From: Cerrena zonata
Taxonomy: Eukaryota; Basidiomycota; Agaricomycetes; Polyporales; Cerrenaceae
Assembly: GCA_038087015.1 (NCBI GenBank)
Contig: JASBNA010000011.1
Location: forward strand, 372,001 to 436,000
Reading direction: 5' to 3'
DNA length: 64,000 bases
The notes below the pieces were generated by a model. It did no database searches and had not been told where the DNA came from. It saw only the letters and a list, made by a program, of their open reading frames with translations. Below, piece after piece: positions 5,902 to 57,499 of the stretch; positions within the stretch are counted from its first letter, which is position 1; every line of letters starts with the position of its first letter. A program made the translations under genes and the position numbers.

Positions 5902-8900
5902 ATGTCTGCCACTGTTGAAGACATTGCGGAAGAAATTCGTTCCTACATCCCAGGAACCGAAGAAATTGTCGTCCAATACGTTGCGGGCTACCTCCTTGAC
6001 CTGGACGATGCTGCCGAGGATGAAGATGTTCTGGAGATCGCTCAGCTTATCCTAGAATCTGCTATTCCATCTACCTCGAAAGATGCATTAAAATCTAAAG
6101 TACAGGTTGACCAATTGGTCAAGAAGCTTGGGGAACTCTTGGAAGAGCCTTTGAGGAAGAGGGCCGAGAAGAATAGGGCTGGCAAGAGCAATGAGCTGGT
6201 TCGATTGGACAAGGTTATGGATTTGAGCAAGACGACTATGAGTAGTACGATTGCTCTCGGTGAAGGTGTGGATCTAGAAAGTATCAATAAGGGAAAGTAA
6301 GTACTTTAGTCTATGTTTTAATTATGCGGTTTGATTTCATATCAATCATAGAGCTTCTCGTGTCGATGTAAAGAAACTGGAGAAACAAGAGGCGAAACTC
6401 AGGGTATGTATATTACTGACTTGGTCGAACAGGTACTGAATGCACTTTACAGGCAAAGATCGAGAAGCGTTCCCGAAGGGATTTGTACGAGGGGTCCAAG
6501 CTATTGGACCAGTACAAGAAACAGGTACTAGCCTGTTTCCTATCTCATATGGTGCATCTATATTTATTTATTTCGGTTTTAGCAATCATACGAAGAAATG
6601 TTTATGAAAATCAATCCTCTCGATGCCGCAGCTGCTGCCAAAAACAAATCGAAAGACATCCACTTACCTTCCATCGATGTCAATTTCGGTTCCAATCGTA
6701 TTTTGTGTGTCTCTTTTTATAGACTACTCTTTGCTCTTACCTGACTATTATCATATAGGTCTGGTGCTTCGCTTACACTTGCTCATGGTCGTCGTTATGG
6801 TCTGATTGGTCGTAACGGTGTTGGAAAGTCGACCCTCCTAAGACATATCGCGATGCGTGAGGTTCCTATTCCCTCACACATAACCATCCTCTTCGTCGAG
6901 CAAGAAGTACGTTCCTTCACTATCGTGCGTCATATTCATTAAATAAGTCATGGCTTAGATTGTCGGAGACGATACCCTCGCACTAGACTCAGTTCTTCAA
7001 GCCGATGTTTGGCGAGACATCTTACTTCGGGAAGAAGTTAGTCTTAACGCGAAACTTACTGAGCTCGAAAAGGAGGGTGACGACAAACGATTCGAAGATG
7101 CTAGAGGGGAGGCAGAGACGAGACTTGCTGAAGTCCATGCGAGATTAGCTGAGATGGAAGCAGAGAGTGGGCCTGCACGAGCTGCTGCTTTGCTTGCAGG
7201 TCTTGGTTTCAGTGAAGCCGATCAATCGAGACCCACAAGATCATTCAGTGGAGGTTGGAGAATGCGGTTGGCACTCGCCAGGGCCCTTTTCGTCAAGGTA
7301 ACTTGTTTCCCTTTCCCTCGTTGATGTTTGTAGTGCTAACTGTGAGAACACAGCCTTCCCTTTTGCTTCTTGATGAGCCTTCCAATCACAGTATGTTCAT
7401 CGTGTTTCTCGAGTCTCTTAAATATGCTCAACATTGTCCGATTGACAGTCGATCTTAACGCCTTGGCATGGCTTGAAGACTATCTTCAAACGTGGTCTGG
7501 TACACTTTTGGTCGTGTAAGTTTTGAACTCAATCGGTAGGCGACAAAAGGACTAACGGTCCCTTTCTAGATCTCACGATCGTGCATTCTTGTAAGAATAA
7601 CTTCTTTGTCCCCGGAAATGGCGACTAATTATTTTCGTATAGAGATGCAGTTGCAACAGATATTATTCATATGCACTCCAGTCGACTTGATTATTACAAA
7701 GGGTATTTCTATACTGAATTCTGTCATTTTAGTGTAATTACTAACCACGTTGACTTATAGAAATTTCACACAGTTCTACTCCACTAAGAGCGAACGTGAT
7801 CGCAATCTTCGGAAGGAGTATGATACTCAGATGGAGTATAGGAAACATTTGCAAGCGTTCATCGACAGGTGGAGGTATAACGCCAACCGCGCTGCTCAAG
7901 CACAGTCCAAAATTAAGATCCTTGAGAAGGTCTGTTTTCACACTCTGCTAACCGTTTCATAGCATTTACCAGCGAGCAGTTACCCGAGTTACATCCCCCA
8001 GAGGCGGAAGAAACAGAAACGTTCAAATTCCCTGAAACCGAAAAGATCTCGCCTCCTATATTGCAGCTGAACGAGGTAACGTTCGGTTATACACCGGACA
8101 AAATCTTGCTCAGGGGTATCAATATCGACGTTGGTTTGGATTCACGGATAGCTATTGTCGGACCTAACGGCGCCGGAAAGTCTACTCTGTATGTAATCTT
8201 CATATCGTCTTCCATCTGCTACTAACCAGTGAAATGGCCTATTCCTAGCATCAAGTTGCTCATTGATGATTTGAAACCTATGGTCGGACATGTCAACCAG
8301 AACGGACGACTGAGAGTGTACGTTACACATCCAGTTCACATTCCATATATTAACTAGCTACAAACAGAGGCTACTTCGCTCAGCACCATGTAGACAACTT
8401 GGACCCAAATATGAATCCAGTACAATTCCTGCAGTCGAAGTTCCCTGGCAAGACGGAACAAGAATATCGTCAACATCTCGGTAATTTCCAGATCAGTGGT
8501 ATGACTGGGTAAGGATACTTCTCCACAGTTTAGATGACTGGCGCGTTCTCAATTACTTTACTAGCTTGCAAATGATCGGAACGCTCAGTGGAGGTCAAAA
8601 ATCCCGTGTTGCTTTCGCAGTATTATCATTACAACGTCCCCATGTTCTTCTTCTTGATGAGGTATGATACTCAATCGATGTTATCTTAGCTACTAACCCT
8701 GATTCGACTTTTCACTTAGCCTACCAATCATCTCGATATTGAGGTAAAGTGACCGCATCGTGTATTAAGTCCATTGCTGACCCTCCCTTAGGGTTTGGAT
8801 GCTCTGATGTCTGCTTTGAGTTCATGGAATGGAGGTGTCATTGTCATCTCTCACGACGAGCGATTCATTACCACCGTTGCTAAAGAGGTTCGTCTCTCGT

Positions 8901-55212: not shown

Positions 55213-55893
55213 CTATTTGCCATTTTGAAGGACATCAGTATTGGCTTCGCTGAATAACTCCGCCTCGGCTTTCCCACAGTCAGCACATGCGTGCGAAATA
55301 TAGCAGCTCTGATCACTCACTGAGATCCCTGTCTTGAACTACGTTCGTCTTGGCTTCGGCAAGAATGTCCTCGATGGCTAGCAAATAATTAGACGAAAGG
55401 CTTAGGTCTGCAGGGTCTATACTCACTCAAGGCGCGGGCACCATTCACTACAACGTCCGCCTTGGCCTCTTTGAAAAGCTCTGCAACAGCTGTTGTATGG
55501 GCGAATTTCATAAGTGAATTATTCGATCGATCTGAACTGAGACTCACTCAAGCCATCTCTTTTTCCTGGTAAAAGGCAATATCAGTCAGGTTATTCTAAT
55601 TGCGAGGATATCTATGTCATAATAAAATACGACACTCACTTCCAGCAAGAACAACATTGGCCTTAGCTTCCAGGAATAAATCGGAAGCGGCTATTGTGAT
55701 CGTACACATGAGTAAAGGTATTTATTCCTGTAGTATCAGGAACGTACTCAAACCAGACTTCTTATCTGATCCAGACGCAACCTGTCAATACCGGTCTTCA
55801 AAAAAGAGGAGCGGTCGACATTGACTTGCCTAATGGGGCCGCACCTGCCAAAGCGAAGGCAACGCAGACGACAAGGAAGAGTTTGTGGAACAT
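55213..55893 (-). CDS. Secreted exon-per-repeat peptide precursor candidate
   Basis: Seven tiny exons, all joined by phase-1 GT-AG introns: 55893-55845, 55765-55748, 55690-55640, 55565-55548, 55489-55427, 55377-55321 and 55268-55213 (49, 18, 51, 18, 63, 57 and 56 nt). They give 103 residues. The signal peptide MFHKLFLVVCVAFALA ends with a classic A-x-A site. The rest is four related units, each starting at an exon boundary with Thr: TASDLFLEAKANVVLAG, TVAELFKEAKADVVVNG, TIEDILAEAKTNVVQ and TEAELFSEANTDVLQ. Linkers are DKKSGL, RKRDGL, ARAL and DRDL, and the C-terminus is NGK. KK and RKR are possible kexin sites. There are no Cys. It is divergent from a UstYa-family gene 0.9 kb away. By analogy with dikaritin RiPPs it may be a precursor, but the units look like amphipathic helices rather than known macrocycle cores. 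Confidence 0.7.
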
Positions 55894-56814
55894 GGCTAGT
55901 GATAGGTCAGGGTAAAGGGGTTCGAAATCACCACTCTAGCTTCTTTCCCTGCTTCCTCCTCTTTCCTTTATACATTGGCTATTTCAGGACCTTCTCGCGC
56001 CACGACCGCCGGAAACGGGATGTCAGAAGTCTGATTCATCGCCTCGATCTGCAATTCTGGTGTGCAAGGGGTTTGTCTTGATTCCACACTTGATGAACAC
56101 GAGAAAAGGACGGCTGTGGTGAGGAGAAAGATTCTAATCTAGGTAATGTATGCGGAACGAGAACGAAAGTCTCACCTCAGAGAGGACATCCTTTTGCTCC
56201 AAACAATAGAACTAATGTCAAGGTTTCTATACATGCATCATGTATCATTCAGATCAGGCTTCTGATACGTGAGGGACGCTCAGTGGCATGTGCAATCTTC
56301 AGCATCTTCTTCGCAATTGCATACGACTACCCCTGGGAGTGCGGGGATAATTGATCGCCTGAGAAGGGAATTGCCACAATGGTGAGTTTTAATTATCAAA
56401 CGTGTAAAAGTGTAAATCGTATCCGACGGCATATATCCTTACCTTACCTCGACTTTTTTTGCAGCAGGTCCGTTGTTTGACAAGGGTGCCGAATACCCTC
56501 CATGTCTCAAGTGACAGATCAGACTGTCATCGGTGAACATGAAGGGCGTATGGCCGCCCAAAGGGAACCCATCAGTTGTTGGTCATACGACACCTTCCTA
56601 TCCTGAGTAGATCGGGGTTTTATCACTATCTGTTCTTCGGAGTTGTTGTGTACCAGTGCTTGGCCAGTGCTGTCCCACGATGCACGCCGGTTTTCAAGCC
56701 GGTAATAGGGCCCTGATTGTGTTTGGTAGCAGATAGGACTACCGGAGCGTCCCTGCTTGCGACATCGAAGCTACCTCTTCAACTCTAAGACGAGCTTCTT
56801 GTGCAAACCTTACC
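55894..56814. other. Divergent promoter region of the precursor and UstYa genes
   Basis: About 920 bp between the two start codons. The precursor side has a minus-strand TATA box. A hydrophobic stretch around 56285-56330 (CAIFSIFFAIAYDYPW in one frame) could be a leftover exon, but no start or splice sites support it. Confidence 0.45.
55965..55972 (-). promoter_or_regulatory. TATA box of the repeat precursor gene
   Basis: TATAAAGG on the minus strand, 71 bp before the start codon, with AGCCAAT just upstream (55974-55980). Spacing is right for a strong core promoter. Confidence 0.6.
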
Positions 56815-57499
56815 ATGAAGTTTCTTGCAAGCCATGGTCCCACTCCAACTGTGTTATTCCTTTCGTCTACAGCACTAGTCAATGTCTGTATTCTACTCGC
56901 AACAATTTATAGAACGTACGTACCGGTAAAGCCATATGTCTTCAGTAAGTAACGTCTGTTAGATAAACGTAATATCGCCTAATGAACTTCCTCCAGGTTT
57001 CATTGGCAGAGAAATGCCACTCGAGACACCCACAGGGCCTATCCCCTACGTCGAAATGACCTACCAAGAATCTTCGCGTTTCGAAATCGAAAACTATACA
57101 GCCAGCCAACCGAATTGGGAAACACTCATAAAGAATCAATTCGGTATCGGTTTTCACCACATTGGCCCTTTCCACCATCGTTTTATCTCGGCCGCATACC
57201 ATTCGCTTCACTGCGTTTATACATTCGGGCGAGACATGGAAAAGCCCAACCATCTGAACGAAACAAGTCATCACCTCGTACACTGCATGATGTACATGCG
57301 ACAACTCTTCATGTGTAATGCAGACGCAACACTGGAACCAGGAGACTTCATGGCGAAGAATCTGACGCTGGATAGAATAGGTGTGACGAGGCAATGTAGA
57401 GATTGGAGGGCAGCAGCGGCGTGGGTGGATCAGAACGCTCTCGAATGGGCAGCGTATAACGGAGTTTCAGAAGAAGCATTGAAACAATTCCTAGAGTAA
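56815..57499 (+). CDS. UstYa/DUF3328-family protein
   Basis: UstYa-type proteins are membrane-anchored putative oxidases; in ascomycete dikaritin pathways (ustiloxin, phomopsin, asperipin) they form the side-chain macrocycle of a ribosomal peptide. Exons 56815-56944 and 56997-57499 give about 210 residues. The first exon encodes a single N-terminal membrane helix (TVLFLSSTALVNVCILLATI). The second shows MPLETPTGPIPYVEMTYQES, FHHRFISAAYHSLHCVYTF with the first HxxHC, and HHLVHCMMYMRQLFMC with the second. ADATLEPGDF, TRQCRDWRAAAAWVD and a short tail complete the domain. Both diagnostic HxxHC motifs and the late C-R-D-W are present, so it is probably active. Its neighbour on the opposite strand is a secreted repeat protein. 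No other tailoring enzyme is visible in the window. Confidence 0.92.

Follow-up and report, generated by a model that had tools for sequence, protein, structure and literature searches.

Ustiloxin-type RiPPs and the other dikaritins derive from secreted precursors with imperfect tandem units, encoded next to a gene for a UstYa protein (PF11807, formerly DUF3328). The precursor definition given in PMC9632046 includes tandem repeats no shorter than 10 residues, and the repeats of dikaritin precursors and KEPs are described as separated by the kexin sites KR, RR or KK (PMC9632046, PMC9769878). According to Umemura 2020 (PMC7329392), DUF3328 genes occur near about 30% of the ascomycete Kex2-repeat proteins but near only 6.1% of the basidiomycete ones, and the suggestion made there is that Basidiomycota possibly use another cyclisation factor or scarcely perform cyclisation at all. 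In Pleurotus the UstYa family is reported to have 16 genes, six of them developmentally expressed (PMC8893723). The preliminary description of the locus studied here called basidiomycete examples little described, which is fair, although the field is not empty, since 103 of the 1680 basidiomycete KEPs counted in PMC7329392 lie near DUF3328 genes. With regard to gene structure, a review (PMC9233826) states that the high intron density of amatoxin genes hampers their identification without transcriptomes; the main text of PMC6339444 contains neither the word "exon" nor the word "intron".

A UstYa gene head-to-head with a short-exon peptide gene

The window, a stretch of 64,000 nucleotides, comes from the genome of Cerrena zonata (55.5 Mb, 171 contigs). 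It had been proposed that a UstYa gene and a secreted repeat-peptide gene stand head-to-head in it, and this two-gene observation was confirmed by gene models and a profile match. The seven-exon peptide gene (55893-55213, minus strand) and the UstYa gene (56815-57499, plus strand) diverge from a stretch of 921 bp between their start codons (55894..56814). Exon 1 of the UstYa gene (56815..56944, plus strand; sequence and protein search of the genome) encodes an N-terminal hydrophobic, membrane-anchor-like segment, and exon 2 (56997..57499, plus strand; profile, alignment and tree) carries HSLHC and HLVHC and is of a class termed O1. The 210-aa product scored 48 bits with the PF11807 profile (curated cut-off 25), and the His and Cys columns of the HxxHC motifs were invariant across 21 alignment rows; its designation as a UstYa/DUF3328 protein with both motifs thus holds. 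Twenty database relatives share 49-91% identity with it, those named coming from Antrodiella citrinella, Panus rudis, Cristinia sonorae, Artomyces pyxidatus, Steccherinum ochraceum and Mycena polygramma. A search for solved structures related by sequence returned none (best E 0.94, legumain). By analogy with its family the protein would be expected to oxidise a peptide.

In the tree the window UstYa fell into clade O1 (support 100/99), outside the precursor-linked class P described below. As drawn, the clade comprises twelve relatives together with four of the five O1 genes found in the genome; the UstYa of locus L027 was left out because its match is split, and was assigned to O1 by sequence type and full-protein search. 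In a search with the full window UstYa protein, identity was 44-60% for the four other O1 genes and at most 34% for the remaining UstYa genes. Five O1 genes is a lower bound. The counts of the PF11807 genome search are lower bounds too, because its 45 exon-level matches came from 50 scored candidates. Three of the five (L019, L020, L024) stand tail-to-tail with a second UstYa type, O2. A dense UstYa array was also noted at C11:472-538 kb (G000), part of which is present in near-identical copies on contig C124, probably the second haplotype; at loci L013 and L015, on both C11 and C124, a QAQAAAQP-rich repeat frame lies near O-type UstYa genes.

The peptide gene is read from the minus strand. 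Exon 1 (55830..55893) encodes the signal peptide MFHKLFLVVCVAFALAGAAPL and ends at a GC-AG donor (gcaagt). It is followed by an 18-nt microexon, (D)KKSGL (exon 2, 55748..55765, acceptor picked by frame), by unit 1, TASDLFLEAKANVVLAG (exon 3, 55640..55690), and by a second 18-nt microexon, RKRDGL (exon 4, 55548..55565), which holds the strongest Kex2-like site in a dibasic-site scan. Unit 2, TVAELFKEAKADVVVNGARAL (exon 5, 55427..55489), unit 3, TIEDILAEAKTNVVQDRDL (exon 6, 55321..55377), and unit 4, TEAELFSEANTDVLQNGK, with the stop codon (exon 7, 55213..55268) complete the splice model. All internal junctions are in phase 1 and the introns measure 49-74 nt. The signal peptide was recognised by our own heuristic rather than by SignalP, from a hydrophobic core of 3.34 and an AxA-like site. 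Upstream of the ATG, TATAAAGG and CCAAT boxes were found (55966..55978, minus strand), the TATA box lying at -79. Weak Pfam matches (renin receptor, Chp1) were under their cut-offs and were discarded.

The 103-residue signal-peptide protein originally described could be reproduced exactly, with exon 1 ending at 55845. We infer that the 108-aa form, which uses the GC-AG first intron, is the better model, because the relatives P0001 and P0024 retain PLGK at that donor. It requires one GC-AG intron and two 18-nt exons, as might be expected of a decaying or chance assembly of small open frames. The P0001 relative, the consistent phase-1 introns of 49-74 nt, the TATA box and four sister genes (see below) argue against such an assembly, which we regard as highly improbable.

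Repeat units and relatives of the window peptide

The best ungapped BLOSUM scores between pairs of the four units were 52, 51 and 40. In control scans of five 10-kb window pieces the rows shown reached 43, save for a proline-rich stretch at 45.7-46.6 kb, and at the other UstYa loci one unrelated pair (L009, plus strand) scored 51. Because of this unrelated pair, a single repeat pair is not decisive but the chain of units is; the case for the window gene rests on the exon chain and the sister genes, not on one score.

With the window protein alone as query, one clear public relative was obtained (P0001, E 8e-11), P0002 and P0003 reaching only E 0.008-0.010. P0024, whose start equals that of P0001, was added by a profile into which pieces of P0001 and P0002 had been entered; since the profile contained these pieces, its E-values are not independent. 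The database relatives are proteins read through introns. Comparison of the window gene with P0001 by manual count gave 15 of 19 like residues for exon 6 and 16 of 17 for exon 7, whereas the intron between them is less alike, with some likeness near the acceptor (ISH..AD..CGK). A search for whole-peptide paralogues elsewhere in the genome matched only the window's own exons (E up to 10).

The peptide had been said to consist of four related units with basic linkers. The units and the linkers KKSGL and RKRDGL are present, so that KK precedes unit 1 and RKR precedes unit 2, but there is no dibasic site ahead of unit 3 (ARAL) or unit 4 (RDL). P0001 has no dibasic site at all. The window peptide contains neither Tyr nor Trp; in three of its four units a Phe follows the leucine (a Tyr in P0001). 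Set against the definition of dikaritin precursors and KEPs, it has a signal peptide, four tandem units of the length demanded and a DUF3328 gene head-to-head at the distance given above, but the kexin sites (KR, RR, KK) that should separate its repeats are incomplete, those ahead of units 3 and 4 being absent.

These properties bear on the reading as a classical dikaritin, in which, on the model of ustiloxin or phomopsin, Kex2 would release the four units as cores and UstYa would cross-link them. The signal peptide, the tandem units, the UstYa neighbour, the basic residues before units 1 and 2 and the clear repeat precursors that face UstYa genes elsewhere in this genome are what such a locus would show. 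The gaps in the series of dibasic sites, both here and in P0001, the want of Tyr and Trp, the position of the window UstYa outside the precursor-linked P clade and the sister genes that carry the unit only once all point the other way, and we consider this reading unlikely. For the same reasons (two units with no dibasic site before them, none in P0001, neither Tyr nor Trp, a UstYa outside the clade tied to classical precursors) we could not uphold the statement that UstYa enzymes act on "just such" precursors as UstA, PhomA and AprA. What survives of the dikaritin-like interpretation is the pairing with UstYa, which looks real, while the peptide is not a classical precursor: as far as the sequence goes, the UstYa-peptide pair is real, yet it is no standard dikaritin locus.

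Sister peptide genes at O1 loci

The 5' flanks of O-type UstYa genes were filtered for a signal peptide, a TATA box and a short first exon. Candidates were obtained at L019 (three, two of which were modelled), L020, L027 and the window; the remaining flanks scanned gave none, and the signal-peptide gene at L024 appeared only with relaxed criteria. The window unit, TxxELFxEAKxDVV, recurs as a terminal exon on contigs C68, C46 and C5 (twice on the last), so that motif-bearing signal-peptide genes with phase-1 introns are present at four of the five O1 loci (window, L027, L020, L019). The models read MIGRKVFFILTLLALTMAAPMALN-DDLAARHL-TADELLAETGADVVPS for L027, ...SPVPAEDKRSHGHG-ATIQIIDTSMLTGGRL-TLDEVLGEARIAVVGN for L020, ...STPISPRASDC-EAMVKRAESTDAMRLAQVGGM-SKDDILKEACGLAVMS for L019a and ...VPLVRRDSASSC-DRKVMSVRGM-SKDEILKEACGSEVTS for L019b, whose 172-nt first intron may hide an exon. 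In all four sister genes every intron is in phase 1, the terminal exon is exactly 50 nt long, and the unit occurs once, at the C-terminus, where it is the counterpart of the last exon of the window gene, which has three other units of the same form. The peptide genes of L027 and L020 face O1. Both L019 genes face O1's convergent O2 partner instead, which is a point against a pairing of O1 with the peptide.

The sister exons had first been spotted by eye, and an exhaustive test was built to remove that choice: every possible phase-1 terminal exon 100-600 nt after 16 signal-peptide ATGs was compared with the window units. Random stretches scored as high in 0 of 3000 cases for L027, 1 of 3000 for L020, 3 of 3000 for L019b and 5 of 3000 for L019a; the 11 other signal-peptide genes, including L024, were unremarkable (at least 841 of 3000 random stretches as high). 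Shuffling of residues gave scores as high in 0 of 20000 cases for the four sister exons and in 15595 of 20000 for L024, whose terminal exon has no match; L024, the fifth O1 locus, was therefore rejected as a motif-bearing member. When a profile of the window and P0001 units was run over 197 kb, the L027 exon ranked first (24.3, versus 21.0 for the highest of 8 nulls), the L020 exon was fifth and both L019 exons were under the listing threshold; the scan thus speaks strongly for L027 and weakly for L020. A looser pattern, drawn up with knowledge of the exons, was only mildly enriched, with six matches at a phase-1 acceptor versus about 2.7 expected. Taken as a phase-1 terminal exon of the form [ST]xx[DE][ILV][LF]xE[AT] beside an O1 UstYa or its partner, the O1-linked family is thus found at four of the five loci. 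A match to the L020 peptide on contig C16 (E 0.012) was dropped, no signal-peptide gene being seen in 3 kb there.

None of the five motif-bearing peptides contains Tyr or Trp, and beyond the signal peptide Phe is missing from the four sisters too. Lacking all three residues there, the sisters cannot form dikaritin-type aromatic cross-links, which excludes a Tyr-type cross-link as the chemistry shared by the family. The window gene looks like a member of the sister family in which the terminal exon has been multiplied fourfold. Since the sisters hold one C-terminal unit, the window repeats may be multiplied terminal or recognition elements rather than cores.

The same data must be weighed for a peptide that is a small secreted protein (effector, hormone or structural) left unmodified, the UstYa acting elsewhere and the O1/O2 pairs perhaps serving other pathways. 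The tail-to-tail O1/O2 arrangement at L019, L020 and L024, the missing motif at L024, the missing Tyr and Trp and the surroundings of the window locus would agree with this. Of ten frames near it (34.9-60.9 kb), many of them cut by introns, none could be identified as a protease, a transporter or a tailoring enzyme; matches were obtained for four (eIF5, SMN motif, DOT1, kinase fragment) and for none of the other six, and a cluster with known tailoring enzymes was rejected. Against an unmodified protein it counts that motif and layout are shared by four of the five O1 loci and by 0 of 11 other signal-peptide genes; we hold this explanation to be rather doubtful, if less so than the classical dikaritin. 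The pairing, originally deduced from adjacency and family knowledge, is strengthened from two sides: the window motif recurs in signal-peptide genes beside other O1 loci, and in the same genome nine of nine class-P precursors are likewise placed start-to-start with a UstYa gene on the opposite strand. Judged by sequence, the window pair belongs to a UstYa-peptide pairing that recurs on a small scale in the Cerrena zonata genome.

Class-P precursors, proposed mechanism and known systems

Scanning of 20 UstYa loci for self-similar peptide stretches revealed repeat-peptide genes at eight (L016, L017, L021, L022, L023, L025, L026, L028). A ninth precursor, with heterogeneous and partly degenerate units as read by eye, lies at C7:218715 (L022 + 8216 = L023 + 2216) and faces the UstYa gene at C7:217245. 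The UstYa proteins of these pairs, class P, are of the type RKALRPDYYxDP...DHVSHC...CSSDIR and its variants, have an exon break near profile position 138 and form one clade with support 100/100 (eight of the nine in the tree, C7:217245 left out). Judged from the two genes of each pair alone, all nine precursors run start-to-start with their UstYa gene and are encoded on the other strand. Six (L016, L017, L021, L022, L023, L028) were modelled by script, and L025, L026 and C7:218715 were read by eye; the script models lean towards the unit patterns because the splicer was given those patterns, and the weak tail exons of L016, L021, L022 and L028 are excluded from our claims. Nearly every unit is an exon of its own, with phase-0 introns, in L016, L017, L022, L023 and L028; in L021 all units share one exon. 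KR is rebuilt across the intron at 6 of 6 joins in L023, 6 of 6 in L028 and 3 of 4 in L016, KR or RR occurs at 7 of 15 joins in L017, and 1 of 6 joins in L022 has such a site. The precursors of L023 (C7:216500-226499, 6432-7179, plus strand) and L028 (C12:598600-608599, 6398-7109, plus strand) have one core per 36-45-nt exon, of the RDISVDDYNYGVSK and RGTTVDECNLYK types. That of L017 (C46:365900-373130, 3538-1865, minus strand), which faces its UstYa, was modelled with 15 unit exons and 17 cores, mostly of the TDxSFGIYDR type. As modelled, several class-P precursors conform to the KEP definition only after splicing of exons of 36-84 nt, which gene callers may miss.

Gene structures derived by splice logic, the terminal-exon relationship, the UstYa clade and the head-to-head arrangement, all computational results, would fit a two-gene peptide-modification unit composed of an O1 UstYa and an exon-cassette secreted peptide with a multiplied terminal exon, and we think that the locus is probably of this kind. 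The family cassette would consist of a signal-peptide exon, one or more short variable exons and, at the end, a conserved exon of the form [ST]xx[DE][ILV][LF]xE[AT]xxx[VA], with phase-1 introns between them and four copies of the terminal element in the window gene. The peptide would enter the ER by its signal peptide (assigned by heuristics) and meet the membrane-anchored O1 UstYa in the secretory pathway, as family knowledge suggests; the UstYa may act on it by oxidation, Kex2 may cut at RKR and perhaps at KK, and the product would be exported. Both the order of these steps and the residues modified are conjectural.

As the exon preceding it varies and the terminal exon is kept, the latter may serve for docking, with the core in the variable part; alternatively, the terminal units themselves are the product. 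It is conceivable, although we advance this only tentatively, that the O1 UstYa proteins of Agaricomycetes have a peptide class of their own, with a docking terminal exon and a core in the variable exon before it, the window gene then being a fourfold dock array with very short or relocated cores. An amphipathic recognition helix was rejected: the moments of nine units were unremarkable (280-1763 of 2000 shuffles as high), and a simple helix-docking picture thus gets no help from the units. Class-P and O1 units begin alike: [ST] is followed by a V or variable residue and a pair of acidic ones (TVDDL, SVDDY, TVEDIF, TLDEV, TIEDI), possibly a common start for UstYa recognition.

In the titles and beginnings of abstracts searched (subscription papers and preprints lay outside), neither O1-linked short peptides nor one-core-per-exon precursors were found, and the peptide family of the proposed two-gene unit appears undescribed in that literature. 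In the Cerrena zonata genome alone there are nine class-P pairs, together with five O1-linked peptide genes that bear the motif; as most of these genes have very short exons, part of the gap between ascomycetes and basidiomycetes could be a gene-calling artefact. If O1 has its own peptide class, the exon-cassette and class-P precursors would represent a hidden mushroom RiPP store, missed because the exons are only 18-94 nt long. A survey of mushroom genomes becomes directly testable with a simple filter that asks for a signal peptide, a TATA box between positions -40 and -90 and a first exon 60-100 nt long. Applied to 522 kb of strands, chosen mostly around UstYa genes, it returned 15 rows at 13 distinct places, 11 of them UstYa-linked peptide genes, and missed at least four linked genes (the main L023 precursor, L024, L025 and L028).

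Compared with the known systems, the window locus shares with the dikaritins the secreted precursor, the imperfect tandem units and the UstYa neighbour. It differs in that dibasic sites are not present between all units, Tyr and Trp are absent, each unit has its own phase-1 exon, the sisters have one terminal unit, and the ten nearby frames include no tyrosinase or other tailoring gene. The basidiomycete KEPs (PMC7329392, PMC9769878) are, like the window peptide, small secreted repeat proteins of Agaricomycetes, some of them encoded near DUF3328 genes, but the window gene falls outside their definition, which calls for Kex2 sites between the repeats. The class-P precursors of the same genome are also placed start-to-start with UstYa, have a signal-peptide first exon and, in five of the six modelled, units in exons of their own like the one-unit exons of the window gene. 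In contrast to the window gene, those five have phase-0 introns, class-P units such as RDISVDDYNYGVSK contain aromatic residues, several precursors have KR at exon joins, and the UstYa proteins of class-P pairs belong to a clade other than O1.
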